Of a stretch of DNA of 64,000 nucleotides, positions 1 to 64,000 are shown piece by piece. The stretch's first letter is position 1; every line of letters begins with the position of its first letter. The position numbers and the translations under genes were made by a program. Origin of the DNA: Bolinopsis microptera (taxonomy: Eukaryota; Ctenophora; Tentaculata; Lobata; Bolinopsidae); assembly GCF_026151205.1 (NCBI RefSeq), contig NC_087076.1, positions 11,570,902 through 11,634,901 on the forward strand, read 5' to 3'. The notes beneath the pieces are model-generated. The model was not told where the DNA came from and searched no databases. It worked only from the letters and a program-made list of their open reading frames with translations.

Positions 1-897
1 AGTTCAGTCAGTAGTCTGTAGTTAGTCAGTAGTCTGTAGTTACAGTCCAGTAGTCAGTACTTCATGTCAGTAGTCTGTACTTCAGTCAGTAGTCTGTACT
101 TCAGTCAGTAGCCTGTACTGCTTCATCAGTAGTCTGTATTAGTCAGTAGTCTGTACTCAGTCCGTAGTCTGTTACCTTCAGTCAGTAGTCTGTACTTCAA
201 GTCAGTATCTGTAGTTCAGTCAGTAATCTGTACTTCTGTCAGTAAGTCAGTAGTTTAGTCAGTAGCATGTAGTTCAGTCCAGTAGTCGTGTAGTTCAGTC
301 TGTATCTGTAGTTTCAGTCCAGTAGTCTGTCGTTCAGTCAGAGTCTGTAAGTTCAGTCAGTAGTCTTACTTCAGTCCGTAGTCTGTACTTCAGTCCGTAG
401 TCTGTACTTCAGTCATTAGTCTGTACTTCAGTCAGTAGTCCCCTGTACTTCAGTCAGTAGTCTAGTTCGTCAGTAGCTCTGTTACTTCAGTCCAGTAGTC
501 TTGTAGTTTAGTCCAGTAGCATGTAGTTCCAGTCGTTAGTCTGTAGTTCAGTCAGTAGTCTGTAGTGCAGTCTGTAGTCTGTAGTTCAGTCAGTAGTCTG
601 TAGTTTCTGTCATAGTCTGACTTCAGTCATAGTCTGTAACTTCAGTCAGTAGTCTGTACTTCAGTCAGTAGTCTGTAAGTTCAGTCAGTAGTCTGTATTC
701 AGTCAGTAGTCTGTACTTCAGTAACAGTAGTCTGTAACTTCAGTCAGTAGTCTGTAGTTCAGTCAGTAGTCTGTACGTCAGTCATAGTCTGGTACTTCAG
801 TCAGTATCTGTAGTTCAGTTCAGTAGTCTGTATTCAGTCAGTAGTCTGTAGTTAAGTCAGTATCTGTAGTTCAGTCAGGTAGTCTGTCACTTCAGTC
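1..897. repeat. 19-bp minisatellite, copy 1 (left part cut by window start)
   Basis: Repeats of cagtagtctgtacttcagt alternate with the variant that has g for c at the twelfth base. Two variant units containing tttagtcagtagcatg lie near 265 and 505, about 630 and 390 bases before the array end. This matches the second and third marker positions in the complete arrays. Confidence 0.95.
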
Positions 898-1845
898 TAG
901 TCAGTCTTTATACATGTATTAATACTGCCGTGTATGAACCTCGAGACCTCAGCTAGGTCAATAATGAATGATAATGAACCCCAAAAAATGATCATGATTA
1001 TTTCGTATAAATGATAGTGAATACAAAGTTTTTAGTATTATGATTTGCCACTACCCGAGCAGTACTCTCTGCATTAACGCCTTAAAATGTTTAATTACAA
1101 TCAATTTAAAGATATACACACATACATAGATATAATAACACTATTAGGGAATGAATAGTTCGTATCTCTTACATTAATTTTAAACAGTAATACAGAGTCT
1201 GAAAGAATGTCTCAGCTATCTTATCAGGAATGTCAGTGGAATTGTTGGATGGCGTGTAGCATTGTAAAAGAACCTCCGAAGATAGTCATATGTTTCGTTC
1301 GGCGATAAAGTTTTGTGTTTCGTTGACTGTACTTCCGCAACTTTTAATCACACCTTTTATCACGCTCCTAAACCTGGGGCATCGTAGCGACTAGTGAGTG
1401 TGGGTATTCGATTACCCAAATATGTCGACGTGAACGCCTGAAACAGTTTGTAATTTGTTGTTAAGCACGATATTAAACACCGAAATACTCCTGAGTATGC
1501 CTCAGAATAGACTCTAATTTGAATTTTTTGGCTCGTCGATAATCTGCTGTTTGATTTTTCATTCAGCATCGTGTATTTTTCTTCAATTTACACATGAGTA
1601 GAAACCATTTGTCCGCGCCAAAATTTTACCTAAACCTGGCCGTGGTTCTGAGTGTGGATATTGATTCAATACAGAATTCTTTAAAATTGTATTTTCAGAA
1701 AGAAAAAGTAAGCATATATTCTCGGAAAAATCCATAGCCAAAAAGTCTAATATGATTCTTTTTCTGACTGGGAAATAACCATTGGGAAGATCTTACATCA
1801 AGGTAAACGATAAACACATTTAATTGTTAATTTATGATAATATTA

Positions 1846-2496
1846 CTAGTGTAACCCGGCCTACGGCCGGATTTCACTGCCGCAGTTAAAAGGGTAGGAG
1901 TAATTACCCGCTGAGTCAAAAGCCCGATTAGGCGAGCAATTCCTATTGCGGAGTCCCTCACGAATCCAATATAAGCTTAAAAGATAGTAATTCTTAATGA
2001 ATAATCAATAAATTAACCCTTACCACCATGCACCACACCAGCCTATCATATTTGTGAACATCATTACATAGTTCGTATGAAAGATGAACTCTCTCTACAG
2101 TCAAAACAGACGCGGTTGAGCACGTCCCCCTTCCCTAATAATTTTAATAGTATTATATGACCATGTAATATATACGCCATGTAATATATACGCTACATAG
2201 CAGAGAGAAGCTAGCCCCTAACGCTTGCCGTTCTTTCTCAAGCCATTTTTTAAAAAATAAATTGTAAAAAAAACCATAATTTTGGTACAAAACCATCAAT
2301 TAAACCACTTACCCACCATGCCGATGTTTTATAAAATTTGCTTATTGCTCGTCAGAGTTTTGGTCGTCACTATACCGAAAAACCATTCCCGTAACTATTA
2401 ACGGTTTTTTTTGTATAACCGTTCGTGAATTAGCACACAGACACACACACAGACCCACACCCAGACACACAACACATTCTGTTGTTATTAAGTTGA
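1846..2496 (-). mobile_element. Non-autonomous Helitron-like element, copy 1
   Basis: Read on the minus strand, the element begins tcaacttaataacacc, passes a gtgtgtctgtgtg tract, and ends with a perfect 7-bp-stem hairpin cccggcc-gta-ggccggg seven bases before a terminal ctag. The flanking host bases are A at the 5' side and T at the 3' side. A GC-rich hairpin just before CTRR, a TC start and insertion between A and T are the Helitron signature. At about 0.63 kb it has no helicase/Rep coding and must be non-autonomous. It lies in the E1-E2 intron, antisense to the host gene. The 5' boundary is less certain than the 3' one. Confidence 0.6.
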
Positions 2497-4271
2497 TAAT
2501 ACACTTGCTATGACCTGACCTTTGTATCGTCTCATTGGCACAAATCGCCAAATATCAGCTCTCTAGACAACCATATTAATGTGGATATTCTGTTTTAGAA
2601 CCTGTCCCCTGGTATGCTGAGTGCTCGGTGTTGTTTCTGAAGTTGGTGAGGTTTGATGTGGTAGTGAACCTGCCCAATGGATGACTGGCTTTATCAGAGT
2701 AATGTGAATATGCAATTCTTGTTAAATTGGTATGTGTGGCACCAAAATTCAGCTTTGAATCAGATCTAGCTTAAATAAAATATTTTGATAACAAATTAAG
2801 TGCAATGTCAATTGCATACCGGAATGAAAAATGAAATGAAGAAGACTAGATTAGAAGTAATTTATGTCATATTGAATTCTTGTGTTGAGCCATATCTAAT
2901 TATTATCATAATATGCTAGCTACTGATATCAGCGATGAATTTTACAGTGTTTTCGAGAACAACGCTGAGGGACGAGGAAGCAGAAGGTGAAGAGGTTTGT
3001 TTCCTCTGTTGTAGATTTGAAGAAGCGAAATTTACTTACAGAACGGTGGGCGTTGAGAGTTCACCACACTGTTCTATACTCAAACTCAGAGATTCGATAC
3101 GAATTAATCATAAACCATTTCTAAACAGCCTTCTTTGAACATCAATTTATAATGTAAGCCCACCTATAACATAGTATCTCTATCTTTAAGCTCCTGTAAG
3201 TTCCACTTAATTTCAGGAACTAGACCTCTGTGACGGTGTATCACAGTGGGAACAGTTCTTATCCCTCTCGTTGTTGATGTAGTTACTGTTGACAAACAAC
3301 GCAAACTCAACCTACTCACCACCAAACGGAGATAGTGAACGTTTTCTGTCAAGCAACAGATATCAACAAGAATATGGTAGGTGATTTCATTCGTTGAAAG
3401 GACTAGTTGACCACCTTACCTTCTTCATACAGAATATCTTTTTTAGTATGAAATGTTTCAATGTTGCTTTAATTAGCCGGAACCTTATTTCCGGTAGGTT
3501 TTCACTTAAAAATACTTTAAATGATTGTGCACTAGTTTAAACAAAAATACAGTTTTTTAGGAAATCTGATAGTTGAAGTTTAAACATTAAAAACAGGTGC
3601 TGACAAGGAGTCCATCCAGAGTGTTGAAGAGTATGGGTACATGGTGAACGTGGGAGTCAAGAGTCAACAGCTTCTCAACAAGAGTGCAGTGCTCCTGAAA
3701 AAGTTTGATATTGTCGGTGGGTCAATACGAGTTAACGATGGCAAACCTTATTTTAGGTGAGGTGTGTTATAATTGTGACTGCCCCAGGGGGATTTATTAA
3801 ATTTTTTTATTTCTTTTCTCTCCTCCAGAGTTTGAGATTGAATAATACAATAATAAGTTTGACTCATATCCTATAATCTCTGAAATTTCTGGCAATTCTA
3901 AGAAGAATTACGGAAGTTTATTAAAGGGTCGCGTATGGGCAGTTAACATCTTGGCCACTTCTGTATAATGGGTAGCTCTGGCAGTGGATAAGTCATGGGT
4001 CATACATTTATAAATTAAAATATTTAATTTTAAGCAGGGAGATAAATTATTAATCATATCTCTTATTAACTGTCTAATTAACACCGTCAATTACACGGAC
4101 TGTACGCGGTAGGGATATAAGCACTTTCGAGAAAACAGTAACCACGTTCTCTTCTCTTGACCCCATGTCACCTTGTTAATATCACGTTACGAACAGGCTG
4201 CTAACGGACTGAGATGTCTTCCTTGGGGGTATCTGTATGGGGGGTACTCTTTCCACTTAGGACGTTTTGCT

Positions 4272-5073
4272 GGGGTGATGCAACGTCCATTAATGTCAGT
4301 ATTTCCATATAAAACCAACCCCAAACTGACATGGACATACTTACATTAATTGACATTAATTGACATTAATTGACTATTAATTGGACATTAATTGACACTA
4401 ATTGACATTATTCGATAAATACATCAAGAATTCACGTCTATGTAAGTAGATCGGTTTCAAAAAAACCAAACTGGTCCTTAAATAATTATGAGTATTTCTT
4501 ATCTGTTGATCCTTAGGTTCAAAGACCACCAAAAAATTTCAGCTTCCAACTCTGTCCATCTGCTATTCTTCGGTCCCCACCGGCCACGCCCATATTTTAT
4601 TGTTTCTTATACAGGGTAAAATATCTAGAATCGCATTTTTTTTAGTATGAGGGAGTAATGTTAGCTGTTTAAAATTCGTTATTCAAAAAATAAATGTCAT
4701 GCAGGCATTTGGTTAATGTGGGGTTTTAAGTTTCTGATCGATGAGAGAACCAACGCCCTTGGATGGCCAAGCCCATTTAAGCAAAATTAAATTTTCGGGA
4801 AACCGTATTATTTTAGTTTTATTAGTTTAATGATCTGAATTTTTCACATTCACATTTCCTATATATGTGGATATAGTAGTGAATAAAATTGATGATATAA
4901 GCGTTCTAAAGTGCTAAAAATAGGTAGAACTACATAATCTCTGGTCGAAAAATATCATGTCAATATAATGTCATATTCAAAATTTTGCAAAACTGACATT
5001 AATGCCATTTATTGAACATTAATTGACATTAAATTGACAATTAATTGACATTAAGTGACGTTGCATTCCCCCT
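4272..5073. mobile_element. MITE with decamer subterminal arrays, copy 1
   Basis: Consensus left end is ggggg-tg-atgcaacgtcaattaatgtca. The right end, reverse-complemented, is gggggga-atgcaacgtcaattaatgtca, so the ends are near-perfect terminal inverted repeats. The 8-base host sequence gttttgct stands on both sides, as expected of a target-site duplication from an 8-bp-staggered family such as hAT. Inside each end is an array of attaattgac decamers. There is no open reading frame for a transposase, so it is non-autonomous. It sits in the E6-E7 intron. Confidence 0.65.
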
Positions 5074-5085
5074 CGTTTGCTAGAG

Positions 5086-5993
5086 TAGGAACCGACCGGT
5101 CTAAGGTTTTGGCTGCCGGACAGAAAGACCGATATTTCCGGTTGTCGCATTTTTCCGGCCGAACCGGTAATAAGAAGAAGATATTTAAGGCTGCCGTCAA
5201 ATAGATAATCCTTGATGTGGTTTTATCAATTATAATATTAAAGCCAAGTGGACACCAATGAGAAAGTGCTTACAGGCCGACTAAGCTGTGTCACGGCCCT
5301 ATTTCAAATTTCAACCAAACTTCCTGCCTGTGAGCATCAGGTCACTTGTTGATATGTTGTGCGAGCAGTGCAGAGGGCACTGATTGATCTGCTGTAATGA
5401 GCAGAGCTAGAAACGAGTTGGAATAAAATCAAACATTGCAAGAATTCACTGCGCCTTGCCTAGCACAAATGTACATATTGCTTCAGTATAAAGCCCCAAG
5501 TCCAGCAGCCAGTGCAGCTCTTATAAGTTCGTGGCGTCATATAACCGAGGATAATGTCGCCAAAGTTTTTAATGCATGATGGCCTTTGTTTAATCCTGAC
5601 ATGTAAGGGGAGTTAGCAACGGGATTGTTTACACCACAAAAAGCAGGGACCCTCGGGCTCTGCTTGAAATGCTCATAAGTTAAAGCATAAATGGTAGCTG
5701 ATTTTGACTCCAACCAATCAATATATCCTCTCATCAACCGGGTCTTGAACATTCGCTGACAGATAACAGGCGACCGGTGGAGGCTGGAATTTACCGGTCA
5801 CAGAGAGCAATGGACGATGCCCCTTATGTAAGAATTTTGACAGAAATATTATACATTTAGGAACACCTAAAAAGAATGGCCGGTTGAATATCCGGCCAAA
5901 TGTTTGAAACCGACCGAAAACCGGAAGCCGAACCGGAGATTTAAAGCCGAATATCCGCTGGAACCGATTCAGCCGGATATCCGGTCAGTTCCA
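5086..5993. mobile_element. hAT-like non-autonomous element, copy 1
   Basis: Consensus ends are taggaaccgaccgg at the left and ccggtcagttccta at the right, 14-base inverted repeats with one mismatch. They are flanked by the same 8 bases, tgctagag, on both sides. Eight-base duplications and short inverted ends with subterminal ccgg-rich motifs are typical of hAT elements. The interior of about 0.9 kb has scattered stops in all frames, and I recognise no transposase domain. The start lies only a few bases right of the MITE and shares tgct with its duplication. Confidence 0.65.
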
Positions 5994-6636
5994 TGCGAGA
6001 GCAGCTTTATTTCTACTATGGTCCATGGAGAGATTTCTTCTTCTGGCTATTAAATATATTAATTTGTTTACTTACAAACTACTAGTGTTTATTTTATCGC
6101 GATGTTTTCTTTATTTCACATCTAAATAATCCCCTTTTTAACCCTGAATATCCCTAACAGGGCTCCGTACACCTAATACATCTGAAGGAACAGATGTACA
6201 ACAGTAAGAGTGTACTGGAGTGTACCCTGCTAACCGCAAGTTTACGCCAGAGTCCCCTCATTAACCCTGAAAACAAGGTGAGTTGTACCCTGTCTTGATG
6301 ATGCTATAGGTCCATTTTAGTAGATAAATTAAGGATTTACTGTGTATTAAGGTACTTCAATTCTCGAACTGTAGCTACTCACAAGAAAATTGGTTAGAAG
6401 TTGTACACTATGTACAGTGTAAATCATTGTAAATGTAAACAGTGTAAATGTAACCGTGTAAATCATGCAGAATGAACATGTTAATGTAACAGTGTAACAA
6501 CTCTCAACAGTGCTGTTGATACATGAACGCCATGTAACCATGGAGACACCAGCTAACAACTAAAGAAGGGTGATGTGGTGGAGGATGTGGAGGGGCAGGG
6601 TTAACTAAACGTGGGGGGATGTCTCACTTGATGACG

Positions 6637-8074
6637 GTCAGTAGTCTGTACTTCAGTCAGTAGTCGTGTAGTTTAGTCAGTAGCATGTAGTTCAGTCAGA
6701 TCTGTAGTTCATCCGTAAGTCTGTAGTTCAGTCCAGAATCTGTAGTTCAGTCAGTATTCTGTAGTTCAGTCATAGTCTGTACTTCAGTCAGTAGTCTGTT
6801 CCTTCCGTCACAGGTAGTCTGTAGTTCATCAGTAGTCGGAAGTTCAGTCAGTAGTCTGTACTTCAGTAATAGCCATTTATTAGTCTGTACTTCAGTCAGT
6901 AGTCCTGTAGTTCAGTCAGTAGTCCTGTAGTTCAGTCAGTAGTCTGTACTTGTCTGTCAGTAGTCTGTACCTTCAGTCAGTAGTGCCTGTACTTCAGTCA
7001 GTAGTTCTGTAGTCAGTCAGTAGTCTGTAGTTCAGTCATAGTCTGTACTCCAGTCCAGAGTCTGTACTTCATCAGTAGTCCTGTAGTTCAGTTCAGTAGT
7101 CGTAGTTCAGTCAGTAGTCTGTACTTCAGACAGGTATCTGTACTTCATCAGTAGTCTGTAGGTTCATCCAGTAGTCTGTAGTTCAGTCAGTAGTCAGTAG
7201 TTTAGTCAGTAGTCTGTAGTTTCAGTCAGTAGTCTGTACTTCAGTCAGTAGTCTACTTCAGTCAGTAGTTCTGTACTTCAGTCAGTAGTCTTACTCAGTC
7301 AGTAGTCTGTAGTTCAGTCAGTAGTCCCTGTACTTCATCATAAGTCTGTACGTCAGTCAGTAGTCCTGTACTGCAGTCAGTAAGTCTGTAGTCCAGTCAG
7401 TATCCGTACTTCAGTCAGTAGTCTGTAGTATTATGTCAGTAGCATGTAGTTTCAGTCAGTAGTCTGTAGTTCAGTCAGTAGTCTGTAGTTCAGTCAGTAG
7501 TCTGTAGTTCAGTCAGTAGTCTGTAGGCAGTCAGTAGTCTGTACTTCAGTCATAGTCTTGTACTTCAGTCAGTATCTGTAACTTCAGACAGAGTCTGTAC
7601 TTGAAGTCAGTAGTCTGTACTTCAGTCCGTAGTCTGTAGTTTCAGTCAGGATCTGTACTTTCAGTCAGTAGTACTGTAGTTTAGTCAGTAAGCATGTAGT
7701 TCATCATAGCTGTAGTTTCAGTCAGTAGTCCTGTAGTTCATTCAGTAGTCTGTAGTTCAGGTCAGTAAGTCTGTAGTTTCAGTCAGTAGTCTGTAACTTC
7801 AGTCAGTAGTCTGTACGTCACTTCAGTAGTGCTGTACTTCATCAGTAGTCTGTAGTTCATCAGTAGTCTGTATTCAGTCAGTAGTCTGTACTGTCACACA
7901 GTCAGTAGTCTGACTTCAGTCAGTAGTCTGTAGTTCAGTCAGTAGTCTGTACTTCAGTCAGTAAGTCTGTACTTCAGTCGAGTATCTTATTTCAGTCCAG
8001 TAGTCTGTAGTTCATTCAGTAGTCGTAGTTTTATCAGTAGTCTGTAGTTCAGTCAGTAGTCTGTACTTCAGTCT
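6637..8074. repeat. 19-bp minisatellite, copy 2
   Basis: About 1.44 kb, or roughly 75 units of cagtagtctgtacttcagt and its g variant. The array starts at the splice donor that ends exon E8. Marker units of the tttagtcagtagcatg type lie near 6,670, 7,430 and 7,680. All frames contain TAG stops every few units, so it is not coding. Confidence 0.96.
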
Positions 8075-9026
8075 AGTCAGTCTTTATATTCACTTGTATT
8101 AATACTGCCGTGGCAATGAACCTCGAGACCTCATATGCTATGGTCAATATGAATGATAATGACAAAAATGAATATGATTATATCGTAAAAAGATAGAGAA
8201 TACGAAAGTTTTAGTGTATTGATGAGTTGCACTACCCCGAGGCAGTACTCTGCCTTAACGCCTTAAAATGTTTTAATACAATCAATTTAAAGATAGAACA
8301 CTCATACATAAATATATAACACTATTAGGGAATGAAAATAGTTCTTATCTCTTACATTAATTTAGAAACAGTAATATACAGAGTCTGAAGAATGTCCCAC
8401 AGATATCTATCAGGAAAATGGCAGTGAAATTTTGGATGGCGTGTAGCATTGTAAAATAAATACCCGAAAGATAGTCATATTTCGTTCTGCGATAAAAGTT
8501 TTGTGTTTCGTTGCTGTACTTCCCGCAACTTAATCACACCTTTATCACACTACCTAAACCTGGGACACGTAGCGACTGTGGAGTGTGGGTATTCTGATTA
8601 CCAAATTTTGTCACGTGAAACATCTAAACATTTGTAATATTAAGCACGAGATTAAACACCGAAATCAACTCCTGAGTATGCTCAGATAACTCTTGTAATT
8701 TTTGCTCGTCCGATATCTGGCTGTTTGATTTTCATTCAGCATCGGTGTATTTTTCTTCAAATTTCACACATGATAGAACCAATTTGTCCGCGCCAAAATA
8801 TACCTGAAACTGGCCGTGGTGTTCTGAGTGTGGATATTGATTAAAATACAGAATTCTTTTAAAAATTTGTAATTTTCAGAAAGAAAAGAGTAAGAGCTAT
8901 ATTCTCGGAAAAATCCAGAGCCAAACAGTCTAAAGATGGATTCTATTCTGATCTGGAAAAACCATTGTAAGATCATACATACAGAGGTAAACGATAAACA
9001 CATATATTGTTAATTATATGAATATA

Positions 9027-9696
9027 CTAGTGTAACCCGGCCTACGGCCTGATTCACTGCCGCAGTAAAAAGGTAGGAGTAATTACCCGTTGAGTCAAAA
9101 CCCGGATTAGGCGAGCAATTCTAGTCGAGTGCCCCACGTAACCAATAGTATGCTTAAAAGAATAGTAATTCTTAATGAATAATCATAGAAATTAACCCTT
9201 GATCCATGCACCACACCAGCTATCATATTTTGTGAACATGCATTACATTGTCGTATGAAAGTATGAACGCTCTCTACAGTCCAAACAGAACCGTTTGAGC
9301 ACTGCTCACTCCCCTAATAAGTTTATAGTATTATAGTGACCATGTTAATATATGACGCCATGAATATATACCTACATATGCATACGAGAGCTAGGCCCCG
9401 TAACTCTGCCGTTCTTCTCAAGCCATTTTATGTAACATATTTTTGTGGTAGCTAAACCCTCAATTAAACCACTTACCACCGGCCGATTTTTATAAAAATT
9501 TTGCTTATGGCTTCGACAAGTTTGTCCGGCACTATCCCGGGTGAAAAAGCGCGCAGTCGCCGTAGTACACACACACTCGGTGTTGTTATCTGCAAATCTG
9601 CACAGAAGAGACCGCTTCGGGGAAATTACACACAACACACACACAGACACACACACAGACACAACACAACACATTCTGTGTTATTAATTAAGTTAA
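9027..9696 (-). mobile_element. Non-autonomous Helitron-like element, copy 2
   Basis: Same hairpin and ctag end as copy 1, between E1 and E2. It is longer because the stretch at about 9,535-9,625 does not match the other copies. Confidence 0.57.
9535..9625. other. Divergent GC-rich patch inside copy 2 Helitron-like element
   Basis: The consensus ataccgaaaaaaaccagtcc and following bases are replaced by unrelated cgcg-containing sequence and an extra acacacacac, then the consensus resumes at ggaaattacac. The other copies agree with one another here. Confidence 0.6.
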
Positions 9697-11484
9697 TAAT
9701 ACACTTGCTATGACCGACCTTGGATCGTCTCATTGGCACAAATCCAAAATATCACTCTCTAAACAACATATTATGGTGGATATTCTGTTTTTAAGAAACT
9801 GTCCCCTGGTATCTGATGCTAGGTCGATGGTGTTGTTTCTGAAAGTTGGTGAGGTTGATTGGGTAGTGAAACCTGCCCAATGGATTTGACCTGGCTTGAG
9901 CTCAGAGGTAATGTGAATTGCATTTCGATGTTAGAATTGTATGTGTGTGGCACCAAATAACTTGAATAAGATCTACTTAAGATAAAATATTTTGATAACA
10001 ATTAAGTGCAAATGTTAAAATGCATACCGAATGAAAAATGAATGAAGAAACTAGATGTAAATAATTTGATATCAATATTGAATTCTTGTGTTGAGCCATA
10101 ATCTAAATTATTATCATAAGTATGCTTAGGTACCTGATATCAGCGAGGATTTTAACAGTGTTATCGAGAACGACGCTGAAGGGTGACGAGACGCAGAAGG
10201 TGAAGAGGTTAGTTTTCCTCTGTTGTAGATTTGAAGAGAGAAATGTACTTACAGAACGGTGGTCGTTAGATTCACCGACACTGTTCTATACTCAACTCAG
10301 AGATTCGATACTACATTAATCATAACAATTTCCCTACACAGCCTTCTTTTTAACATCAATTTAATTAATGTAAGCCCCTATAACATAGTATCTTCTATTC
10401 TTTAAGCTCCTTAAGTTCCCTTAATTTCGTAACTAGACCTCGGTGACGTTGTATCAGTGGACAGTTCTATCCTGCTCGTGTTGATGTAGTCACGGTTGAC
10501 AAGAACACGCAAACTCAACCTCACCCCCAAACCGGAGATAGGTAACGTTTCTGTCAAGCAACAGGATATCAACAAGAATACTGAAGGTGATTTCATTTCG
10601 GATTTAAAGGACTAGTGACCCTCACCTTACCTTATTCATAAGAATCTTTTTTAGTATGGAGAATGTTTCAATGTTGCTTTATTAGCCGGAACCTTATTCC
10701 TCCGGTAAGGTTTTCATCTTAAAAATACTTTAATTGATTGTGCCACTTCTAGTTGTTTAAACAAAAATACGAGTTTTTAAGATTATCGTGATAGTTGAAA
10801 GTTGTAAACATTAAAAACTGGTGCACAGAGGAGTCATCCAGAGTGGTTGAAGATAAAAAACGGGTACATGGTGAACTGGGTAGTCAAGGGAAGTAACGCT
10901 TCCTCAACAAGAGTGCAGTGCTCCTGAAGAAGTGTGATAATTGTCGGTGGTGGTCAATCCGGTTAACGATGGCAACCATATTTTAGGTGAGGTTGTTATA
11001 AATGTGCAGCCCCGGGGGGATTAATTAAATTGGTTTATGTCTCTCTCCAGAGTTTGAGATGAATAATACAATTAATAAAGTTTGACATCTTATCTAATCT
11101 CTGAAATTTCGTTTCAATTCCTAAGAAGAATTACGTGAGTTATTAAAAGGGTCGCGTATGGGCAGTTACTTCTGGGCCCACTCTGTATAATGGTAGCTCT
11201 GGCAGTGTAGTCAGGGTCATCCATTTATAATTAAAAATATTTTAATTTTAGCAGGGAGATATATTATATTCATCTCTATTAACTGTCTAATTAACACAGT
11301 CTAAGTAACACAGGACTGTACGCGGTAGGATGAAAGCCTTTCCGAGAAAACATTAACCACGTTCTCTTCTCTGAACGCCAGTCACCTTGTTAATATCACC
11401 GTTAAGAAACAGCTGCTAACGGACTAGATGTAAACCTTCCTTGGGGGTATCCTGAAGGTACTCTTCCATTAAGGACTGTTTGCT

Positions 11485-12267
11485 GGGGGTGATGCAACGT
11501 CAATTAATGTCAGTATTCCATAAAAACCCCAAACTGACATTGACCATTAATTGACATTAATTGACATTATTTTACATTAATGGACATTAATTGACATTAA
11601 ATGACATTAATTGACATTATTCCGGTAAATATTCAAGATATTCACGTCTATGTAAGTTAGATCGGTTCAAAAAAAAACAAATGTCCTTAATACTTATGAG
11701 TATTTTCGATAGCTGTTGAGCCGTAGGTTCAAAGACCACCAAATAAATTTTCAGCGTTCCAACTCTTCCCATCTTCGGTCCCCACCGGCACGCCCGATAT
11801 TTTATTGGTTTTCTGTATACAGAAAATATCACGGAAATGGCTTTTTTTTAGTAGGAAGGAGTAATTTAGCCTGTTTAAAATTCGTTTATTCAAAATAACT
11901 GTCATGAAGGCATTCGTTTAATGTGGGTTTTTAGTCTGATGATGTTGAGACCACGCCCTTGGATGGCCAAAGCCGCCATTTAAAGAAAATTAAATTTCGG
12001 AACCCGTATTATTTTAGTTTTATTGTTTAATGACTGAATTATTTTTTTTCACATTTCATCACATTCCATATGTGATAGGTAGTGAATAAATTGATGATAT
12101 AAAGTTAAAGGTGCTAAAAATTGGTAGAACTACATAATCTCTGTCGAAAAATATCATGTCAATAATGTCAGTATCCAAAATTTTGCAAAACTGACATTAA
12201 TTGACATTAATTGACTTTAATTGACTAATTGACATTAATTGACATTAATTGACGTTGCAATCCCCCC
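11485..12267. mobile_element. MITE with decamer subterminal arrays, copy 2
   Basis: Same inverted ends and flanking gttt(t)gct duplication as copy 1. The two decamer arrays lie near 11,536-11,620 and 12,190-12,253. Confidence 0.63.
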
Positions 12268-12279
12268 GTTTTGCGAGAG

Positions 12280-13221
12280 TAGGAACCGACCGTCTAAGGG
12301 TTTGGGCTGCCGGACCGAGAAAAGACCGAATAATCCGTTGTCGCATTTTCCGGGCCGGAACCCGGGTACTAAGAAAGAAGTGTATTTAAGGCTGCCGGAA
12401 AATTGAGATTAATCCTTGATTGTGGGTTTATCATTATAATATAAAAGCCATGTGGACATCAATGAAGAAGAGTGCTTACTAAAGTCCACTAACGGTGTTC
12501 ACGCCTATTTCAAATTTTCAATCAAACTTTTCTGGCGCTGTGAGCAGCATTCAACTTGTTAAGTGTCGAGCGGCAGGGTCACTGATTGATCTGCTGTATG
12601 AGTACAAGCTATAGAAACGAGTTGGAAATAAAATCAAAACATTGCAAGAATTCACTGCGCCTTGCCTAGCACAATGACAAATTGCTTCAAGTAGTAAAGC
12701 CCCAAGATTCCAGCAGCCAGTGCACTCTTATAATTCGTGGCGTCAATATAACCGAGGATAATGTCGCAAGTTTTTTTAATGGCATGGATGGCCTTTGTTT
12801 TAATCTGACATGTAAGGGGAGGTTAGCAACGGGTTGTTTACACAATAAAGCAGGGACCCTCCTCCTGGCTCTGCTTTGAAATGCCTCATAAGTATAGCAT
12901 TAATGGTAGCTGTTTTGACTCTAACCACTCAAAAATCTCACATCAACGGGGGTCTTGAACATTCGTGCTGACTGATAACAGGCGATCACGTGGAGGCGTG
13001 GAATTTACCGGTCACTGAGAGCAATGACTGGATGAGCCCCTGAGTAAGATTTTGACAAGAAATATTATACATTTAAGGAACACTTTAAAAAAGAACTGTC
13101 CTGTTGAATAACCGGCAAATTTTTTGGAAACCGTACCGAAACCGGAACCGGAAACCGGCGATTAAAAGCCAAAATATAGAATATCCGGCTGGAACCGATT
13201 AGCCGATATCCGGTCTTCCTA
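12280..13221. mobile_element. hAT-like non-autonomous element, copy 2
   Basis: Same ends. The flanking duplication reads tgcgagag on both sides in this copy. Confidence 0.63.
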
Positions 13222-19450: not shown

Positions 19451-19465
19451 GCGTTTTGCCTAGAG

Positions 19466-26595: not shown

Positions 26596-26607
26596 GTTTT
26601 GCTAGAG

Positions 26608-33775: not shown

Positions 33776-33797
33776 TGCATTCCCCCGTTTGCTAGAG

Positions 33798-35219: not shown

Positions 35220-35224
35220 CTCAG

Positions 35225-40909: not shown

Positions 40910-40920
40910 GTTTTGCTAGA

Positions 40921-48216: not shown

Positions 48217-48230
48217 GTTTTTTGCTAGAG

Positions 48231-51236: not shown

Positions 51237-52187
51237 TAGTCAGTCTTATATCACGTTTTGTATTAATACTGCCGGTGTATGAACCTTCGAGACCTCAAGC
51301 TAGTGGTCAATATGAATGATAATGAACAAAAATGAATATGAATATATCGTATAAATGATAGTGAATACGAAAGTTTTAGTTATTGATGGATTGCACTAAC
51401 CCGGAGGCAGTACACTGCATTAACGCCTTAAAATGTTTAATTACAATCAATTTAAAGATATACACACATACATAAATTATAATAACACTATAGGGAATGA
51501 AATAGTTCTTATCTCTTACATTTAATTTAGAACATAATACAGAGTCTGAAAGAATGTCACAGATACTTATCAGGAAAATGGCAGTGAAATTGTTGGATGG
51601 CGTGTAGCATTGTAAAATACCTCGAAGATAGTCTAATTTCGTTCTGCATAAAAGTTTTGTGTTCGTTGGCTGACTCCCGCAACTTAGTCACCCTTTTATC
51701 AACACTTCCTAAACCTGGGCACGTAGCGACTGTGGAGTGGGGTATTCTGTTTACAAAGATATGTCAGGGGGAGACGTGAACATCTAAACAGTTTGTAATT
51801 AGTTTAAGCACGATATTAAACACCGAAATCAACTCTCTAGTATCCTCAGATAGACTCTTGTAATATTTTGGCTCGTCGATATCTGCTGTTGATTTTCATC
51901 AGCAATTCGGTGTATTTTTCTTCAAATTTTACACATGAGTAGAACCAATTTGTCCCGCCAAAATTTACCTGAACTGCCGGGGTTTCCGAGTGGATATTGA
52001 TTAAATACAGAATTCTTTAAAAAATGTATTTTCAGAAAGAAAAGTAGGAGCAATATCTCGAAAAAAAAAAGAAAAAGCATAGCCAAAAAGTCTAAAGATG
52101 ATTCCGATTTCTGATCTGGAAAAACCATTGGAAGATCTTATCAACAGGTACACGATAAACACATTTATTGTTAATTATATAATATGA

Positions 52188-52825
52188 CTAGTGTAACCCG
52201 GCCTACGGCGCGGGAATTTCACTGCCGGGCAGTTAAAAAGGAGATAATTACCCGCTGAGTCAAAACCGATTAAGCGAGCAATCTATTCGAGTGCCCATCC
52301 ACGTATCCATAGTATTGCTTAAAAGATGTAATTCTTTAATGAAAATCAATAGAAATTTAACCCTTAACACCATGCACCACACCCAGCCTATCATATTGTG
52401 ACATGCATTACTGTCGTATGTAAGTATGAACTCTCTCTACCGTCCAAACAGACCGTTTTTGAGCACTCCCTCCCCTAATAAAGTTTATAGTATTAAAAGA
52501 CCATGTAATATAGACGCCATGTAATATACACGCACATATGCAGAGAGAGAGCTAGCCATCGTAACTCTTGCCGTTATTCTCAAGCCATTTTATTTTAACA
52601 TATTTTGTGGTACAAAACCATCAACTAATCACATACAGCTACCGGCCGATATTTATAAAATTTGCTTATTGGCTTTCGTCAAGTTTGTCGGCACGATAAC
52701 CGAAAAAAACCAGTCCCGTAAGACTATTAAACCGTTTTTTTTGTATAACCGTTTCGGCAATTACACACAACACACACACAGACACACACACAGACACACA
52801 CACATTTCTGGTGTTATTAAGTTGA
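52188..52825 (-). mobile_element. Non-autonomous Helitron-like element, copy 8
   Basis: Terminal ctag at 52,188. The hairpin has a one-base insertion. It ends gttga at 52,825. Confidence 0.58.
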
Positions 52826-54595
52826 TAATACACTTGCTTATGACCCTACCGTTGTATCGTCTCATTGGCACAATCCAAAATATCAGTCTCTCTAACAACA
52901 TTACATGTGGGATTTCTGTTTTTAGAAACTGTCCCTGGTATCTGATGCTCGGTGTTGTTTCTGAAGTTGGTGAGTTGATGTGGTAGTGAACCTGCCCAAT
53001 GGATTGCTGCTTTATCAGAGTAATGTGAAATATGCATTTCTATGTTTAAATGTATGTGTGGCACTCAAATAAGCTTTGACTTTGATCTAGCTAAGATAAA
53101 ATATTTGATAACAAATTAAGTGCAATGTTAAAATGCATACCGAATGAAAATGAAATGAAAGAAACTAGATGTAGAAGTAATTTATATCATATTGAAATTC
53201 TTGTGTTGAGGCCATATCTAATTAATTATCATAATATGCTAGGTACTGATATCAGCGAGGAATTAACATTGTTATCGAACAACGCTGAAGTGAACGAGAG
53301 CAGAAGGTGAAGAGGTTAGTTGCCTCTGTTGTAGATGAAGAAGAGAAATGTACTTACAGAACGGTGGGCGTGAGAGTTCACCACACTGTTCTATACTCAA
53401 ACTCAAGATCCGATACTAATTAATCATAACAATTTCCTAACAGCCTCTTTTGAACATGCAATTTATAATGTAAGCCACCTATAACATAGATCTCTAGTTC
53501 TTTAAGCTCCTGTAATTCACTTAATTTCAGGAACTGCTAGACGCTCTTGTGACGTTTGTATCAGTGGGACAGTTCTATATCGCTGCACGGTTGTTTTGAT
53601 GTAGTTACTGTTGACAAGACACGCAAACTCAACCTCACCCCAAACCGAGATAGTGAACGTTTCTGTCAAGCATCAGGATATCAACAAGAATATGGTAGTG
53701 ATTTCATTCTATTTAAAGGACTAGTGACCCCTACCTTCTTCATAAGAATATCTTTTTTAGTATGAATGTTTTCATTTGCTTTATTAGCCGGAAACCTTAT
53801 TTCCGGAACGGTTTTTTCATCTTAAAAACTTTAAAATGATTCGTGCCACTATTTTAAAAAACAAAAATACAGTTTTAGGATTATCTGTTAGTTGAAGTTT
53901 GTAAACATTAAAAACGTGCCACAAGGAGTCATCCAGAGTGTTTTGAAGAGTAACGGTACATGTGAACGTGGAGTCAAGGGAGTTAACAGCCGTTCCTCAA
54001 CAAGAGTTGGCAGTGCTCTGAAGAAGTGTGATATGTCCGTGGTGGTCAATACGGTTAACAGGCAACCTATTTTAGGTGAGGTGTGTTATAAATTGTGCAG
54101 CCCGGGGATTTAAATTGATTTTAGTCCTCTCTCCGAGAGTTTTTGAGATTGAATAATACAATAAGAAGTTGACTCATATCTTTAAATAAAAATCTCTGAA
54201 ATTTCTGTGCAATTCTAAGAAGAATACGTGAGTTATTAAAGGTCGCGTAATGGGCAGTTACTTCTGGGCCACTCTGTATAATTGGGTAGCTCTGTGGCTT
54301 GTAGTCAGGGTCAACATTTATAATTAAAATATTCGATTAATTTATGCAGGGAGATAATTATTAATCATCTCTTATACCGGTCTAAATTAAACACAGTCTA
54401 ATTAACACAGACTGTACGCGGTAGGGATGTAAGCCACTTTCCGGAGAAAACAGTAACCCGTTCACTCTCATGACGGGGGCAGGTTCACCTTGTTAAAATA
54501 TCACACCGTTACAGAAACAGGCTGCTAACGGACTGAGATGTACCTTCCTTGGGGGTATCCTGGTAGGTACTCTACCACTTAGGGACTGTTTTGCT

Positions 54596-55367
54596 GGGGG
54601 TATGCAACGTCAATAATGTCAGTATTCCATAAAACCCCAAACTGACATTGCATTAATTGACATTAATTGGATATAATTGACTATTAATTGACATGAATTG
54701 ACATTACTTGACATTATTTGACATATTCGATAAATATCAAATATTCACGTCTATGTAAGTTAGATCGGTCAAAAAAAACAAATGTCCTTAATAATTATGA
54801 GTAAGTTCTTATCTGTTGATCCTTAGTCAAAGACCACCAAAAAAATTTCAGCATCCAACTCTTCCATCTTCGGTCCCCACCGGCCACGCCCCATAATTTA
54901 TTGGGTTCTTATACAGGTAAAATACTTAGAATCGGCCTTTTTTAGTATGAAGGAGTAATGTTAGCTGTTGTAAAATTCGTTTTCCAAAAATAAATGTCCT
55001 GAAGGCATTCTTAATGTGGGGTTTAAGTTCTGATGATGTTTGAGAACCACGCCCTTGATGGCCAAGCCCATGTTAAGAACATGACTTCGGGAAACCGAAT
55101 TAATATTAGTTTTAATTGTTTAATGATCTATTTTTTCACATTTCACATTTCCATATGTGATTTAATATTGAATAATTGATTGAATAAACGGTTCTAAAGT
55201 GCTAAAAATATGGTAGAAAACTACATAATCTCTGTCGAAAAATATCATTTCAATTAATGTCAGTATTCCAAAAATTTTTGCAAAACTGACATACTTGACA
55301 TTAATTGACATTAATTGACAGTAAGTGACATTAATTTGACATTAATTTGACGTTTTGCATTCCCCCC
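54596..55367. mobile_element. MITE with decamer subterminal arrays, copy 8
   Basis: Flanked by gttttgct on both sides. Decamers in the right array have several private changes. Confidence 0.63.
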
Positions 55368-55378
55368 GTTTTGCTAAG

Positions 55379-56303
55379 TAGGAACCGACCGGTCTAAGGT
55401 TTTTGGCTGCCGGACCAGAAAAGACCGGATATTCCGGTTGTTGTCGCATTTTTCCCGGGCCGGAACCGGTAATAAGAAAAGATATTTAAGCTGCCGGAAA
55501 TTGAGATTAATCCTTGAGTGTGGGTTTTATCAATTAATAATATAAAAAGCCATGTGACACAATGAGAAAGTGCTTACAGTCCGACTAACTGGTTCACGCC
55601 CATTTCAAATTCAACCAAACTTCTGCGCTGTGAGCAGCATCACCTTGTTGATAGTTTGTGCGAGCAGTGCAGAGGTCACTGATTGACTGCAGTTTGAGCA
55701 GAGCTGAAACGAGTTGAATAAAAACAAACATTGCAAGAATGCACTGCGCCTTGCCTTAGCGAGACACAAATGTACAAATTGCGTCAGTAGTAAAGCCCAA
55801 GATCCAGCAGCCAGTGCAGCTCGTATAAGTTCGTGCGTCAATATACCGAGGAATAATGTCCAAAGTTTTTTAAGGCATGAGGGCCTTTGTTTTAATCCTT
55901 ACTTGTAAGGGGATTAGCAACGGGTTTGTTTACACCAAATACAGCAGGGGCCCTCCGGTCTGGGCCTCTGCTTAAATGCTCATAAGTAAAGCATAAATGG
56001 TAGCATGTTTTTGACTCTAACCCACTCAAAAATCTCAACATCAACGGGTCCTATGAACATTCGCTGACAGATACAGCGACCGTGGAGGCGTGTAATTTAC
56101 CGGTCACTGAGAGCAATGGACTGGATGCCCCTTAGTAAGAATTTTTGACGAAATATTATACATTTTAGAACACTTAAAAAAGAAATGTCTGTTGAATATC
56201 CGCCAAATTTTTTGCAACCGGACCGAAACCGGAAACGGAACCGAGATTAAGGCCGAATATTCCGGCTGGAACCGGATTCAGCGGATAACCGGTCAGTTTC
56301 CTA
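55379..56303. mobile_element. hAT-like non-autonomous element, copy 8
   Basis: Right flank is a clean tgctagag; the left flank has lost one base. Confidence 0.63.
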
Positions 56304-56961
56304 TGCTAGAGGAGCGTTTATTTCAACTATGGTCCATGAGATATTTTCTTCCTTCTGGCTTTAAATATATTTACTTGTTTACTTAAACACTACTATGTGT
56401 TATTTTATCGCGATGTTTTCCATTTATTCACAACTAGAATAATCCCCGTTTTGAACCATGAATATCCGCTAACAGGGCTCCAGGTACACCTAATACATCT
56501 GAAGACAAGGTACAAACAGTATGAGTGTACTGAGGGTACCCTGCTAAACGCAAGTTAGCCGCCAGAGTCCCTGCTCATTACCCTGAAAAAAACAAGGTGA
56601 GGGTACCCTGTCTTGATGATGCTATAGTCATTTTAGTAGATAAATTAAGGATTAATCTGTGTGATAAAGGTACACATTCTCTACTGGTAGCTACTCACAA
56701 GAATATTTGGTTAGAAGTTGTAAACATACTGTAACAGTGTAAATCATTGTAAATGTAACAGTGTAAAATGTAACAGTGTAAAACATTGCAAATGTAACAG
56801 TGTAATGTAACAGTGTTACAACTCTCAGACAGTGCGGTTGAGTACATTGAACTGCCATGTAACCATGGAGACACCCTGCTACCAACTAAAGAGGGGTGGT
56901 GTGGTGGAGGATGTGGAGGTGGTCAGGGTTACTAACTGGGTGTATGTCTCACTTGATGACG

Positions 56962-58376
56962 GTCAGTAGTCATGGTACTTCAGTCAGTAGTCCGGTATTT
57001 TTAGTCAGTAGCATGTAGTCAGTCAGTAGTCTGTAGTTTCAGTCAGTATTCTGTAGTTCAGTCCAGTAGTCTGTAGTTCAGTCCAGTAGTCGGTAGTTAG
57101 TCAGTAGTCTGTAACTTCAGTCAGTAGTCTGTACTTCAGTCAGTAGTCTTTAGATTCAGTCAGTAGTCTGTAGTTCAGCTCAGTAGTCTGTACTTCAGTC
57201 AGTAGTCTGTACGTCAGTCAGTAGTCTGCAGTTCAGTCATAGTCTGTATTCAGTCATAGTCTGTACTCAGTCTGTAGTCTGTACTACTTCAGTTCGAGTA
57301 GTCTGTACTTCAGTCAGTAGTCTGTAGTTCAGTAGTAGTCTGTAAGTTCATACAGTAGTCTGTACTCCAGGCAGTAGTCTGGTACTTCAGTCAGTAGTCG
57401 TAGTTTCAGTTCAGTAGTCTGTAGTTCAGTCAGTAGTCTGTACTTCAGGTCAGGTAGTCTGTACTTCAGTCAGTATCTGTAGTCAGTCAGTAGTCCTGTA
57501 GTTCAGTCAGTAGTTCTGTAGTTAAGTCAGTAGTCCTGTGTTCATCAGTAGACTGTACATCAGTCAGTTGTCGGTACTTCAGTCAGTAGTCGTACTTCAG
57601 TCATAGTCTGTACTTCCAGTCATTAGTCTGTAGTTCAGTCAGTAGGCGTACTCAGTCGTAGTCTGTACTTCAGTCAGTAGTCCTGTACTTCAGTCAGTAG
57701 TCTGTAGTTCAGTCAGTATCTGTACTTCAGTCAGTAGTCCCCTGTAGTTTTAAGTCAGTAGCATGTAGTTCAGTCAGTAGTCTGTAGTTCATCAGTATCT
57801 GTAGTTCAGTCAGTAGACTGTAGTTCATCCGTAGTCTGTAGTTTCAGAGCAGTAGTCTGTACTTCAGTCAGTAGTCCTGTAACTTCAGTCAGTAGTCTGA
57901 CTTCAGTCCGTAGTCTGTAACTTCATCAGTAGTCTGTACTTCAGTCAGTAGTCTGAGGTTCAGTCCGTCGCTGTACATCATCAGTAGTCTGTAGTTGTAG
58001 TCAGTACATGTAGTTCAGTCAGATAGTCTTAGTTCATGTCAGTAGTCTGTAGTTCCGTCAGTAGTCTGTATTCAGGGTCAGTAGTCTGTAGTTCATCAGT
58101 ATCTGAACTGTCAGTCAAGTAGTCTGTACTTCAGTCAGTATCTGTACTTCAGTCATAGTCTGTAGTTCATCATAGTTCTGTAGTTCAGGTCCAGTAGTCG
58201 TACTTCAGTCAGTAGTCGTACTTCAGTCCAGTAGTCTGTAGTTCAGTCAGTAGTCTGTACTTCAGTCTAGTCTGTACTTCAGTATGTAGTCAGTAGTTAG
58301 TCAGTAGTCAGTAGTTAGTCAGTAGTCTGTAGTTTATCAGTAGTCTGTAGTATCAGTCAGTAGTCTGTACTTCATC
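56962..58376. repeat. 19-bp minisatellite, copy 9
   Basis: About 1.42 kb. Marker variant units lie near 56,998, 57,750 and 57,995. Confidence 0.96.
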
Positions 58377-59347
58377 TAGTCAGTCCATTATATTCACTGT
58401 GTATTAATACTGCCGGTGTATTGAACCTCGAGACCTCATGCTATGGTCAAGATGAATGATATGAACAAAAAAGATATGATTAATCGTATAAATGATAGGG
58501 AATACGAAAGTTTAAGTTATTGATGGATTGCACTACCCCGGAGGCAGTAACTCTGCATTACAGGCCTTAAATGTTTAATTACAATCAATTTAAAGATATA
58601 CACACATACATAAATATAATAACACTATTAGGTAATGAAAATAGTTCTTATCTCATACATTAATTTAGAACAGTAATACAGAGTCTGAAAGAAGTCGGAC
58701 AGATATCTATACCAGGAAAAATTGACAGTGAAATTGTTGGATGGCGTGTAGCATTGGTTAAAATACCTCGAAGATCGTCATATATCGATCTGCGATAAAA
58801 GTTTTTTGTGTTTCAGTTGCTGTACTTCCCGCAACCTTTAATCACACCTTTTAATCACACTTCCTAAACCTGGGCACGTAGCGACTGTGGAGTGTGGGTG
58901 TATGTCTGATTACCAAATATGTCACGTGCACATCTAAACAGTTTGTAATTAGTTTAAGCGACGATATTAAACACGAAATCAACGTCCGAGTATCCCAGAT
59001 AAACTCTTTTGTAATTTTGGCTCGCGATATCTGGCTGTTGATTTTTGTCATTCAGCATCGGTGAGGTTTTTCTTCAATTTACAACATGAGTAGAACCAAT
59101 TTGTCCCGCGCCAAAATTGTACCTGAACTGGCCGTGGTTTCTGAGTGTGGGATATTGATGTTAAATACAGGAATCTTTAAAAAATGATTTCAAAAGAAAA
59201 AGTAGAGCATATATTCTCGAAAATCATATCCAAAAATCTAAAGATGATTCTATTTCTGATCTGGGAAAACCATTGGAAGATCTTACCATACAAGGTAAAC
59301 GATAACACATTTATTGTTAGATTATAAAAATAAAAATAATTTTTTTA

Positions 59348-59986
59348 CTAGTGTAACCCGGCCTAACGGCCGGGATTTCCACTGCCGCAGTAAAAAGGGT
59401 AGGAGTAATTACCTGTACCCGCTGCGTCAAAACCCGGATTAGGCGATGCAATTCTATTCGAGTGCCCCTCCGTATCCAATAGTATGCTTAAAAGAAAGTA
59501 ATTCTTAATGAATAATCAATAGAAATTACCCTTAAAACACCAAATGCACGCACACCACCTATCATATTTGTAACATGCATTTACATTGTCGTATGAAAGT
59601 AATGAACTCTCTCTACAGTCGCAAACAGACCGTTTGAGCACACCCTCCCCTAATAAGTTTTAAAGTATTATATGACCATGTAATATATACGCCATGTAAT
59701 AAATACGCGACATATGCAGAGAGCGAGCTAGCCCCGTAACTCTTGCGTTCTTCTCAAGCCATTTTATTAACATATTTTGTGTACAAAACCATCAAATTAA
59801 ACCACTTACCACCGTCCGATTTTTATAAAATTTGCTATTGGCTTCGTCTGAGTTTTGTCTGCACTATAACCGAAAAAACAGTCCCGACTAATACCTTTTT
59901 TTTGGTATAACCGTTCGGAATTACACACAGACACACACACAGACACACAACACAGACCACACACATTCTGGTGTTATTAAGTTGGA
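59348..59986 (-). mobile_element. Non-autonomous Helitron-like element, copy 9
   Basis: Terminal ctag at 59,348 after a t-rich artefact in the flank. The hairpin carries one inserted base. The right end is near 59,986. Confidence 0.58.
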
Positions 59987-61766
59987 TAATACACTTGCAT
60001 GACCTGACCTTTGACGTCTCATTGGCACAAATCCAAAAAATCACTCTCTAACTACATATTAATTGATAATCTGGTTTTTTAGAAACCTGTCCCCTGGTAT
60101 GCATGCTCGGTGTTGTTTCTGAAGTTGGTGAGGTTGATGTGGTAGTGGAAACAGCCCAATGGATTGACTGCTTATCAGAGTAATGTGAATATGCATTTCT
60201 ATGTTAAATTGTATGTGTGGCACCCAAATAAGCTTTGAATGATCTAGCTAAGATAAAATATTTTGATACAAATTAAGTGCAATGTTTAAATGCATACCGA
60301 ATGAAAAATGAAATGAAGAAACTAGATGTAGGAAGTAAATTGTATATCAAATAGAATTCTTTGTTGAGCCCTATCTAATTATTATCATAATATGCTAGGT
60401 ACGGATATCAGCGAGGAATTTTACAGTGTTATCGAGAACAACGCTGAAGGTGACGAGGAAGCAGAAGGTGAAGAGTTAGTTCCTCTGTGTAGATTTGAAG
60501 AAGAGAAATGTACTTACAGAACGGGTGGGCGGTGAGAGTTTCACCGACACTGTTCTATACTCAAAACTCAGAGAGTTCGATACTAAATTAATCATAACAA
60601 TTTCCTAACAGCCTTCTTTTGAACATCAATTTTATAGTGTAAGCCACATATAACATAAGTAGCCTCTATTCTTTAAAGCGCCAGTAAGTGTCCACTTAAT
60701 TCAGGAACTAACCTCTGTACGTTTTTTGATGTATCAGTGGGACAAGTTCTTATCCTGCTCGGTTGTTGATGTAGTTACTGTTGGACAAGACAACGCAAAC
60801 TCAACCCTCACCACCAAACCGAGATAGTGAACGTTTCTGTCAAGCAAACAGGATATCAGACAAGGAATATGGTAGGTGATTCCTCGATTTAAAGAAAGAT
60901 CTAGTACCACACCTTAGCCTTCTTCATAGAATATCGTTTTTAGTATGAAATGTTTCAATGTTCTTATTAGCCGAACTTATTGGTCCGGTAGGTTTTCATC
61001 TGTAAAAATACTTTAAATGATTGGCCACTATTTAAACAAAAATACCGTTTTAGGATTATCTGATAGTTGAAGTTGTAACATTAAAAACAGGTGCTACCAG
61101 TAGTCATCCACGAAGTGGTTTAAAAATAGAAGAGTACGGGGTACATGGTGAACGTGGGAGTCCAAGGAGTAACAGCCTTTCCTCACAAGAGTGCATGCAG
61201 GCTCCTGAAGAAGTGGTGATATTTCCGGGTGGTGGTCAATACGTTAACGATGGCAACCTATGTTAGGGTGAGGTTGTTATAAATTGTGCAGCCCCGGGGG
61301 ATTATTAATTGGTTTTAGTTTCTCTCTCCAGAGTTGAGATTGAATAATACAATAATTATTTGACTCATATCTAAAAATCTCTGAAATTTTCTGTGCAATT
61401 CTAAGAAGAATTACGTGAGTTATTAAAGGTTCCGATGGCAGTTACTTCTGGCCACCTGTAATAATTGGGGAGCTCTGGCAGTGTAGTCAGGGTCAAACAT
61501 TTATAATTAAAATATTTAATTTTAGCATGGAGATGAAATTATTTAATCATCCTTATAACTGTCCTAATTAATCACAGTCTAATTAACACAGGACTGTACG
61601 CTAGGGATGAAAGCACTTTCGGAGAAAACAGTAACCACGTTCTCTTCTCTCTGACGCAGGTCACCTTGTTAAGATCACCGTTAAGAAACAGGCTTGCTAA
61701 CGACTGAGATGTACCTTCCTTGGGGGTATCCTGGTAGGTAATCTTCCACTTAGGGACTGTTTTGCT

Positions 61767-62553
61767 GGGGTGATGCAAACGTCCCATTATTGCAGTATTC
61801 CATAAAAACCCCCAAAACTGACATTGACATTAATTGTACATTAATTGACATCTAATGACATGAATTGACATTAAATTGACACTAATTGACACTAATTGAC
61901 ATTATTTCGATAAATATTCAAGATATTCACGTCTATGTAAGTTAGATCGTTCAAAAAAAACAAAATGTCTTAAATAATTATGAGTATGTTCTATCTTATG
62001 ATCCTTAGGTCAAAGACCACCAAAAAAATTTCAGCTTCCAACTCTTCCATCTTCGGTCCCCCCGCACCGGCCCACGCCCATATTTTATTGGTTTCTTATA
62101 CAGGTAAAATATCTAGAAATCGGCTTTTTTAGTATGAAAGGAGTAATGTTAGCTGTTTAAAATTCTTATTCAAAAAAATAAATGTCATGAGGCATTTCGT
62201 TTATGTGGGTTTTAAGATCTGATGATGTTGAGACCACCACGACGCCTTGGATGGCCAAGCCCCATTTAAAAATATTAAAATTTCGGGACACCGATTATTT
62301 TATTTTATTTGTTTAATGATCCTGATTTTTTCACATTTCACATTTCCATATTTTGATAGTAGTGAATAAATTGATGATATAAACGTTCTAAAGTGCTAAA
62401 AATATGGTAGAAACTACATAATCTCATGTCGAAAAATATCATTCAATTAAATGTCATATTCCAAAATTTTGCAAACTGACATAATTGACATTAATTGACA
62501 TTAATTGACATTAATTGACATTAATTGGACATTAATTGACGTGCATTCCCCCC
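61767..62553. mobile_element. MITE with decamer subterminal arrays, copy 9
   Basis: Left flank gttttgct, right flank gttttggct. The right decamer array is regular, near 62,477-62,541. Confidence 0.63.
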
Positions 62554-62566
62554 GTTTTGGCTAGAG

Positions 62567-63492
62567 GTATGACCGACCGGTCCTAAGGTTTTGGCTGCCG
62601 GACCAGAAAAGACCGGATTATTCCGGTTTGTTCGCATTTTTCCGGCGGAACCGGGTAGATAAGAAGAAGATTATTTAAGGCTCCGGAAAATTGAGATTGA
62701 TCCTTGTTGTGGGTTTTATCGAATTATAGATATTAAAAGCCATGTGGACACAATGCGAAAGTGCTTACAGTCCGACTAACTGTGTTCACGCCTATGTCAC
62801 ATTTCAACAACCAAACTTCTGCGCTGTGGAGCAGCAGTCACTTGTGATATGTTGTCGAGCAGTGCAGAGGTCACTGATTGATCTGCTGTATGAGCAGAGC
62901 CTAGAAACGAGTTGGAATAAAATCAAAACATTGCAAGAATTCACGTGCGCTTGCCTAGCACAAATGTACAAATTGCCTTCAGTAGAAAAGCCAGATCCAG
63001 CAAGCAGGCAGCTCTTATAAGTTCGTGGGCGTAATATAACCGAGGATAATGTCCAAAGTGTTTTAATGGCATGATTGGCCTTTGTTTTTAATCCTTGACA
63101 TGTAGGGATTAGCACACGGGTTTGTTTTACCACAATAAAGCAGGACCCTCTTGCTCTGCTTGAAATGCTCCATAAGTAAAGCAATAAATGGGAGCTGTTT
63201 TGAGACTCACCACTCAAAGAAAATCTCACGCCGATCAACGGGGTCTTGAACATTCGCTGACAGATAACAGGCGACCGTGAGGCGTGGAATTTACCGTCAC
63301 GAGAGCAATGGACTGGATGCCCCTTGTAAGAATTTTTGACAAAATATTATACATTTTAGGAAACTTAAAAAAGAATGTCCTGTTGAATATCCGGACCCCA
63401 AATTTTTTGAAACCGGACCGAAACGAACCGGAACCGGAATTTAAAGCCGATATCCGGCTGGAACCGATTCAGCCGATATCCGGTCATTCCTA
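62567..63492. mobile_element. hAT-like non-autonomous element, copy 9
   Basis: Right flank is a clean tgctagag. The left end is disturbed by one-base changes. Confidence 0.62.
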
Positions 63493-64000
63493 TGCTAGAG
63501 GAGCTTTATTTCTACTATGGTCCATGGAGATATTTATCTTCTTCTGGCTATTAAATATATTTACTTGTATTACCCTTTAAAAACTTACTATGTGTTATTT
63601 TATCGCGAAGTTGTCTTTTAATTCACAACTAAATAATCACCCGTTTGACCCTGAATATCCCTAACAGGGCGCCGTACACATCTATACATCTGAAGGACAT
63701 GTACAACAGGAAGAGTGTACTGAGGTGTACCCGCTAAACGCAAGTACAGACCGCCAGAGTCCTCCTCATTAACCCTGAAACAAGGTGAGTTGTACCGCTT
63801 CTTGATGAGGCTAGTAGTTCTTTTTAGTAGATAAATTAAGGATTAACTGTGTGATTAGGTACAACAATTCCTACTGAAGCTACTCACTAGAAATATTTGG
63901 TTAGAAGTTTGTAAACATAATGTAACAGTGTAAATCATTGGTAAATGTACCAGTGTAAATGTAACAGTGTAAAATCTTGCAAATTGTAACCGTGTAATGT

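Follow-up and report, generated by a model that had tools for sequence, protein, structure and literature searches.

Probable long-read artefact behind a tandem RRP5 array in the Bolinopsis microptera genome assembly

The array of 7.15-kb units that fills our window (the whole 64,000-nucleotide stretch that was analyzed, C5:11570902-11634901, forward strand) is, with a probability that we put at about 95%, an assembly artefact, in which uncorrected read text over a single 7111-bp template from the RRP5 gene would have been inserted in C5. We arrive at this reading because (i) the copies amount to read-type noise about a single clean gene and (ii) the same noise stands at several chromosomal places. 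Among the options raised in an earlier note on this DNA was that of an artefact, produced either in assembly or by rolling-circle amplification, and it is supported here by read-type errors and by their exact recurrence elsewhere. Two others, namely a young intragenic amplification and a satellite born from a gene segment at this site, are not supported, as the copies differ by read-type errors, have no common history, and show errors that are found exactly on other chromosomes. The repetition is real in the letters, whereas, judging from the sequence, a genomic array at C5 is very probably not real.

Layout of the array and its clean template

The assembly that was searched comprises 264,652,675 bases in 232 contigs. 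The window lies entirely in the inner part of the array and holds eight whole and two partial unit copies, all in direct orientation, with the partial ones at both ends. By BLAST, the array extends from ∼C5:11556923 to ∼C5:11639825 (82.9 kb), beyond both window ends, which agrees with the earlier observation that neither edge lies within the window. The earlier description of about nine direct repeats of 7.14-7.17 kb was right in period (∼7.15 kb) and orientation, but whole-unit lengths range from 7145 to 7316 bases, and the first, second, and sixth units measure 7183, 7247, and 7316 bases. Nor is the array uniform, contrary to what had been thought: over the long aligned pieces listed, identity between the copy at 30001-37150 and the remaining ones is 84.7 to 85.8%. 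There are no N bases in the stretches of array, locus, and flanks that were checked. A known RNA gene array was considered and rejected, with no Rfam match at gathering score and no tRNA. The features of the window are as follows.

1..1367 (+), partial unit (3' part)
1368..8552 (+), unit copy whose end is an estimate based on the joint match
8553..15795 (+), unit copy whose start is an estimate based on the joint match
15796..22942 (+), unit copy
22943..30092 (+), unit copy whose end is an estimate based on the joint match
30093..37240 (+), unit copy whose start is an estimate based on the joint match
37241..44556 (+), unit copy with the garbled stretch
44557..51708 (+), unit copy
51709..58863 (+), unit copy
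58864..64000 (+), partial unit (5' part)
35360..36782 (+), 19-bp minisatellite, example copy; present in each unit
6637-8083, 13889-15315, 21036-22473, 28204-29612, 42771-44092, 49820-51246, and 56962-58374, further copies of the 19-bp minisatellite
30584..31227 (+), dispersed repeat of ∼640 bp (unit 455-1099), example copy; also at many other genome places
42260..42740 (+), garbled stretch, G/C-rich with G and C runs, limits by eye

The unit was found in clean form once, at C11:3063170-3070280 (7111 bp; among the matches listed, with 40 of 285, 40 of 42, and 40 of 455 candidates scored). At this locus it occurs once, its ends are separate, and it is continuous with the gene on both sides. In the array copies, the template ends are instead joined, with nine joints in the window and one in the fetched stretch of C4, and the two template breakpoints have three bases, CTA, in common. 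The earlier note had reasoned that single-copy read depth, together with a single clean RRP5 locus in another assembly, would speak against a genomic array; such a single clean locus was found, in this same assembly. A majority consensus of eight copies is 98.6% identical to it; the 5253 columns of this comparison contain 11 mismatches and 62 gap bases. Since the clean gene is unchanged, introns included, copies that lie so far apart could hardly have come from mutation.

The assignment of the unit to RRP5, also proposed earlier, holds: when joined, the five unit exon peptides match yeast Rrp5 (5wlc, residues 208-373) with an E value of 4.6e-12. Six peptides of the gene were submitted to Pfam, and three were matched, two of them from exons outside the unit (S1 and S1_RRP5, above cut-off) and one from the unit (S1_RRP5, E 7.4e-5, below the Pfam cut-off), whereas the other three, all from the unit, gave no match. 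From the window, 43 copies of the five exons were recovered, 8 or 9 of each where a complete set would be 45, and none of the 43 is free of indels. The clean gene carries the 19-bp minisatellite at ∼C11:3068400-3069800, between exons, in ∼74 units.

Errors of the copies and clean controls

The nine window copies were aligned to the clean locus over 45,157 template bases with gap costs of our own choosing. The alignment covers the unit up to the minisatellite and uses matches of at least 1500 bases; for four of the nine copies it spans a shortened range, by which the garbled stretch at 42260-42740 is excluded too. Against the template, the copies show 1.72% substitutions, 4.07% inserted bases, and 3.46% deleted bases. 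Single-base indels dominate, with 1116 of the 1365 insertions and 1285 of the 1405 deletions affecting one base. Mutation usually favors transitions; here they account for 102 of 778 substitutions, so that transversions dominate.

The errors are independent between passes, in that 687 of the 724 distinct substitutions are private to one copy. A further 33 occur in two copies (24, with a standard deviation of 5, are expected at random), and this we counted against the artefact reading; none occurs in three or four copies, and four occur in five or more. Variants common to copies by descent, as in a genomic array or satellite, were not found among the nine copies. The variants present in at least four of the nine copies number 19, namely the four widespread substitutions and 15 one-base indels. 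Each of these indels lies in a homopolymer run and is present in four or five of the nine copies; we read them as context errors, among which a few could be real unit differences. The four substitutions (sites within C11:3063170-3068394, by local alignment) are present in nearly all of the window copies and of the C4 copies that cover them. As they are common to both texts, a single template haplotype would have been read, one that differs from the assembled C11 allele; the template is thus probably the other haplotype.

The dispersed repeat embedded in the unit (455-1099) served as a control, for which copies from eight other places were taken among 52 listed matches outside the arrays and the clean locus. 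Compared with the clean copy, the eight control copies together carry 9 substitutions and 13 indel events (∼99% conserved), whereas the nine window copies carry 121 substitutions and 366 indel events over the same repeat. Because the control copies are nearly clean, the assembly is clean where sampled. None of the nine control substitutions is a transition, a number too small for a control of the spectrum. An old, diverged satellite was rejected on the error spectrum, the private variants, and the clean control copies.

Recurrence on other chromosomes and rival readings

The same text stands elsewhere in the assembly, and window positions 30001-31500 are 100% identical on both C3 and C1. The recurring stretches are as follows.

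15262..38613, recurring on C3 (minus strand), sharp edges
12701..46291, recurring on C1 (minus strand), sharp edges

Base-for-base identity with C5 was seen over 15262-19000 and 26001-38613 for C3 (19001-26000 of this copy was not fetched) and over 12701-19000, 26001-36000, and 42214-46291 for C1 (the rest of which was not fetched). The garbled stretch at 42260-42740, which takes the place of about half a kilobase of unit, is identical in the C1 copy and resembles a burst of poor base calling. A lax coverage scan covered the whole window, this stretch included, and was uninformative.

A second array, at ∼C4:14824569-14942117, has the same unit and the same joint with errors of its own; in the two copies that were fetched from it, substitutions stand at 2.15 and 2.21%, and 10 of 80 and 7 of 53 of these, respectively, are transitions. 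The C4 text recurs in turn at ∼C11:14292376-14337167, where 1301 of 1301 bases are equal and four copies have equal scores, and the overlap of the two adds up arithmetically to one text of ∼130 kb. The 40 scored unit matches (of 42) are distributed over C5 (12), C3 (3), C1 (4), C4 (15), C11 near 14.3 Mb (5), and the clean locus (1). Ten array flanks showed no similarity to the unit at an E value of 1e-3, the one match being of 27 bases at E 0.006. Flank similarity, to the unit or between sites, was accordingly rejected as the cause of placement, with none in the 10 flanks.

As a separate observation, photoprotein-like open frames, with a total of 55 matches of which many score equally, form tandem clusters at a spacing of ∼0.94 to 1.03 kb. 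Another such frame elsewhere is closest to berovin (E 1.2e-121) and mnemiopsin 1 (E 2.4e-121), both of which are ctenophore proteins. As a species marker, a photoprotein was thus informative, whereas a glutamate receptor was not, no ctenophore being named among the rows listed for it. The clusters are located as follows.

C5:17012730-17026401, photoprotein-like cluster
C13:11082451-11094340, photoprotein-like cluster
C1:21999412-22006929, photoprotein-like cluster
C3:3415490-3427363, photoprotein-like cluster

The rival readings differ in how much of this evidence they can accommodate. The animal may have held a homogeneous amplification, either a multicopy circle or a one-haplotype tandem array of at least ∼18 units, from which raw reads were misplaced together with their errors. 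We regard this as unlikely, while noting that the text on C5 (82.9 kb) and that on C4 and C11 (∼130 kb) differ in their errors but have the same joint, and that nearly all copies of both carry the four substitutions relative to the clean allele. Two versions of the text with one joint mildly favor a molecule that was present more than once; however, the pattern is equally obtained if one or two polymerases read a single library circle, and the two texts might belong to the same long polymerase read.

That the text is raw Oxford Nanopore rather than PacBio output is very improbable. Insertions and deletions are nearly equal here, as published for that platform, but the raw profile given for it in PMC7671305 (∼4% for each kind of error) has transitions raised, against 102 of 778 in the window; moreover, the assembly section of the likely source study names PacBio as its sole long-read data (PMC10232365). 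We give next to no credence to a genuine, ancient array on C5 that diverged by mutation and from which parts were later copied to C3 and C1, together with another such array on C4 and C11. In its favor, the array is long, regular, direct, chromosomal, and free of N in the stretches checked, and the base-identical stretches at other places might represent recent duplications. Against it, the copies lack a common history, transversions dominate, the gene remains clean down to its introns (consensus 98.6% identical), no exon copy is intact, and copies of the embedded repeat from other loci are clean.

Under the preferred reading, that of an assembly artefact, long-read text left uncorrected, its closest match being raw PacBio CLR, would have passed repeatedly over the 7111-bp template and been inserted in C5. 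Parts of it would also have entered C3 and C1, and C4 and C11 would have received another text of this sort. A gap-closing or single-read consensus step may have placed them, and the circling of the template, 11 to 18 times, is the least certain part of the scheme. One-way passes would result from a 7.1-kb circle that is read in a rolling manner and equally from a long homogeneous array, and between these we lean toward a rolling, strand-displacing reading of a DNA circle over a real long tandem array.

About 302 kb of the assembly would apparently be read text (82.9 kb on C5, 23.4 kb on C3, 33.6 kb on C1, 117.5 kb on C4, and 44.8 kb on C11), which at these five places would mislead the annotation of repeats, counts of pseudogenes, claims on copy number, and local synteny. 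The finding is of value mainly as an assembly warning, and the features used here, namely the proportion of transitions, variants private to one copy, noise that recurs exactly at unlinked places, and clean controls, can separate read noise from evolution elsewhere.

Comparison with known read types, gap filling, and circles

The text resembles raw PacBio CLR output in its dominance of single-base indels, its substitution level of ∼1.7%, its raised transversions, and its variation of errors by pass; the level and the type of its substitutions point to PacBio. Unsplit reads of an ordinary hairpin library alternate strands, whereas the passes here all run in one direction. The raw PacBio (RS II) profile given in PMC7671305 has ∼1.7% substitutions, 3.2% deletions, and 8.0% insertions, with A↔C and G↔T changes raised. 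Insertions here, at 4.07%, are half of that published level, a point that we counted against the artefact reading; insertions and deletions stand at 4.07 versus 3.46%, compared with about 8 versus 3% in the published set (PMC7671305).

The likely source assembly, according to its assembly section, was built from PacBio CLR data on a Sequel II with wtdbg, HiRise, TGS-Gapcloser, Purge Haplotigs, and pilon (PMC10232365). Polishing with short reads was part of this procedure, yet the noise persists, which we counted against the artefact reading (PMC10232365). TGS-GapCloser, as described in PMC7476103, picks read segments with alignments on either side of a gap, and one read may fill several gaps. 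The arrays resemble a mis-fill by this tool in that read segments stand between clean flanks, and differ from it in that these flanks have no similarity to the unit, so that the alignment by which a read would have been chosen is not visible. Because the tool needs reads aligned to both sides, and the flanks are unlike the unit, it does not explain the choice of sites, which we likewise counted against the artefact reading. In a limited search of the literature on such fills and on one-way concatemeric PacBio reads, from which we claim no absence, this very artefact was not found.

Direct plasmid sequencing without library preparation is cited in PMC4302988. An extrachromosomal circle is a possible source molecule of the reads, as far as sequence can tell. 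The likeness to extrachromosomal circular DNA lies in one contiguous genomic segment whose ends are joined, with CTA at the joint, although a 3-base overlap is weak. With respect to RRP5 (PDCD11) itself, the unit differs in being a part of the gene and in that each exon copy recovered from the window is broken, whereas it resembles the gene in its exons, which are similar to Rrp5, and in the S1 repeats.
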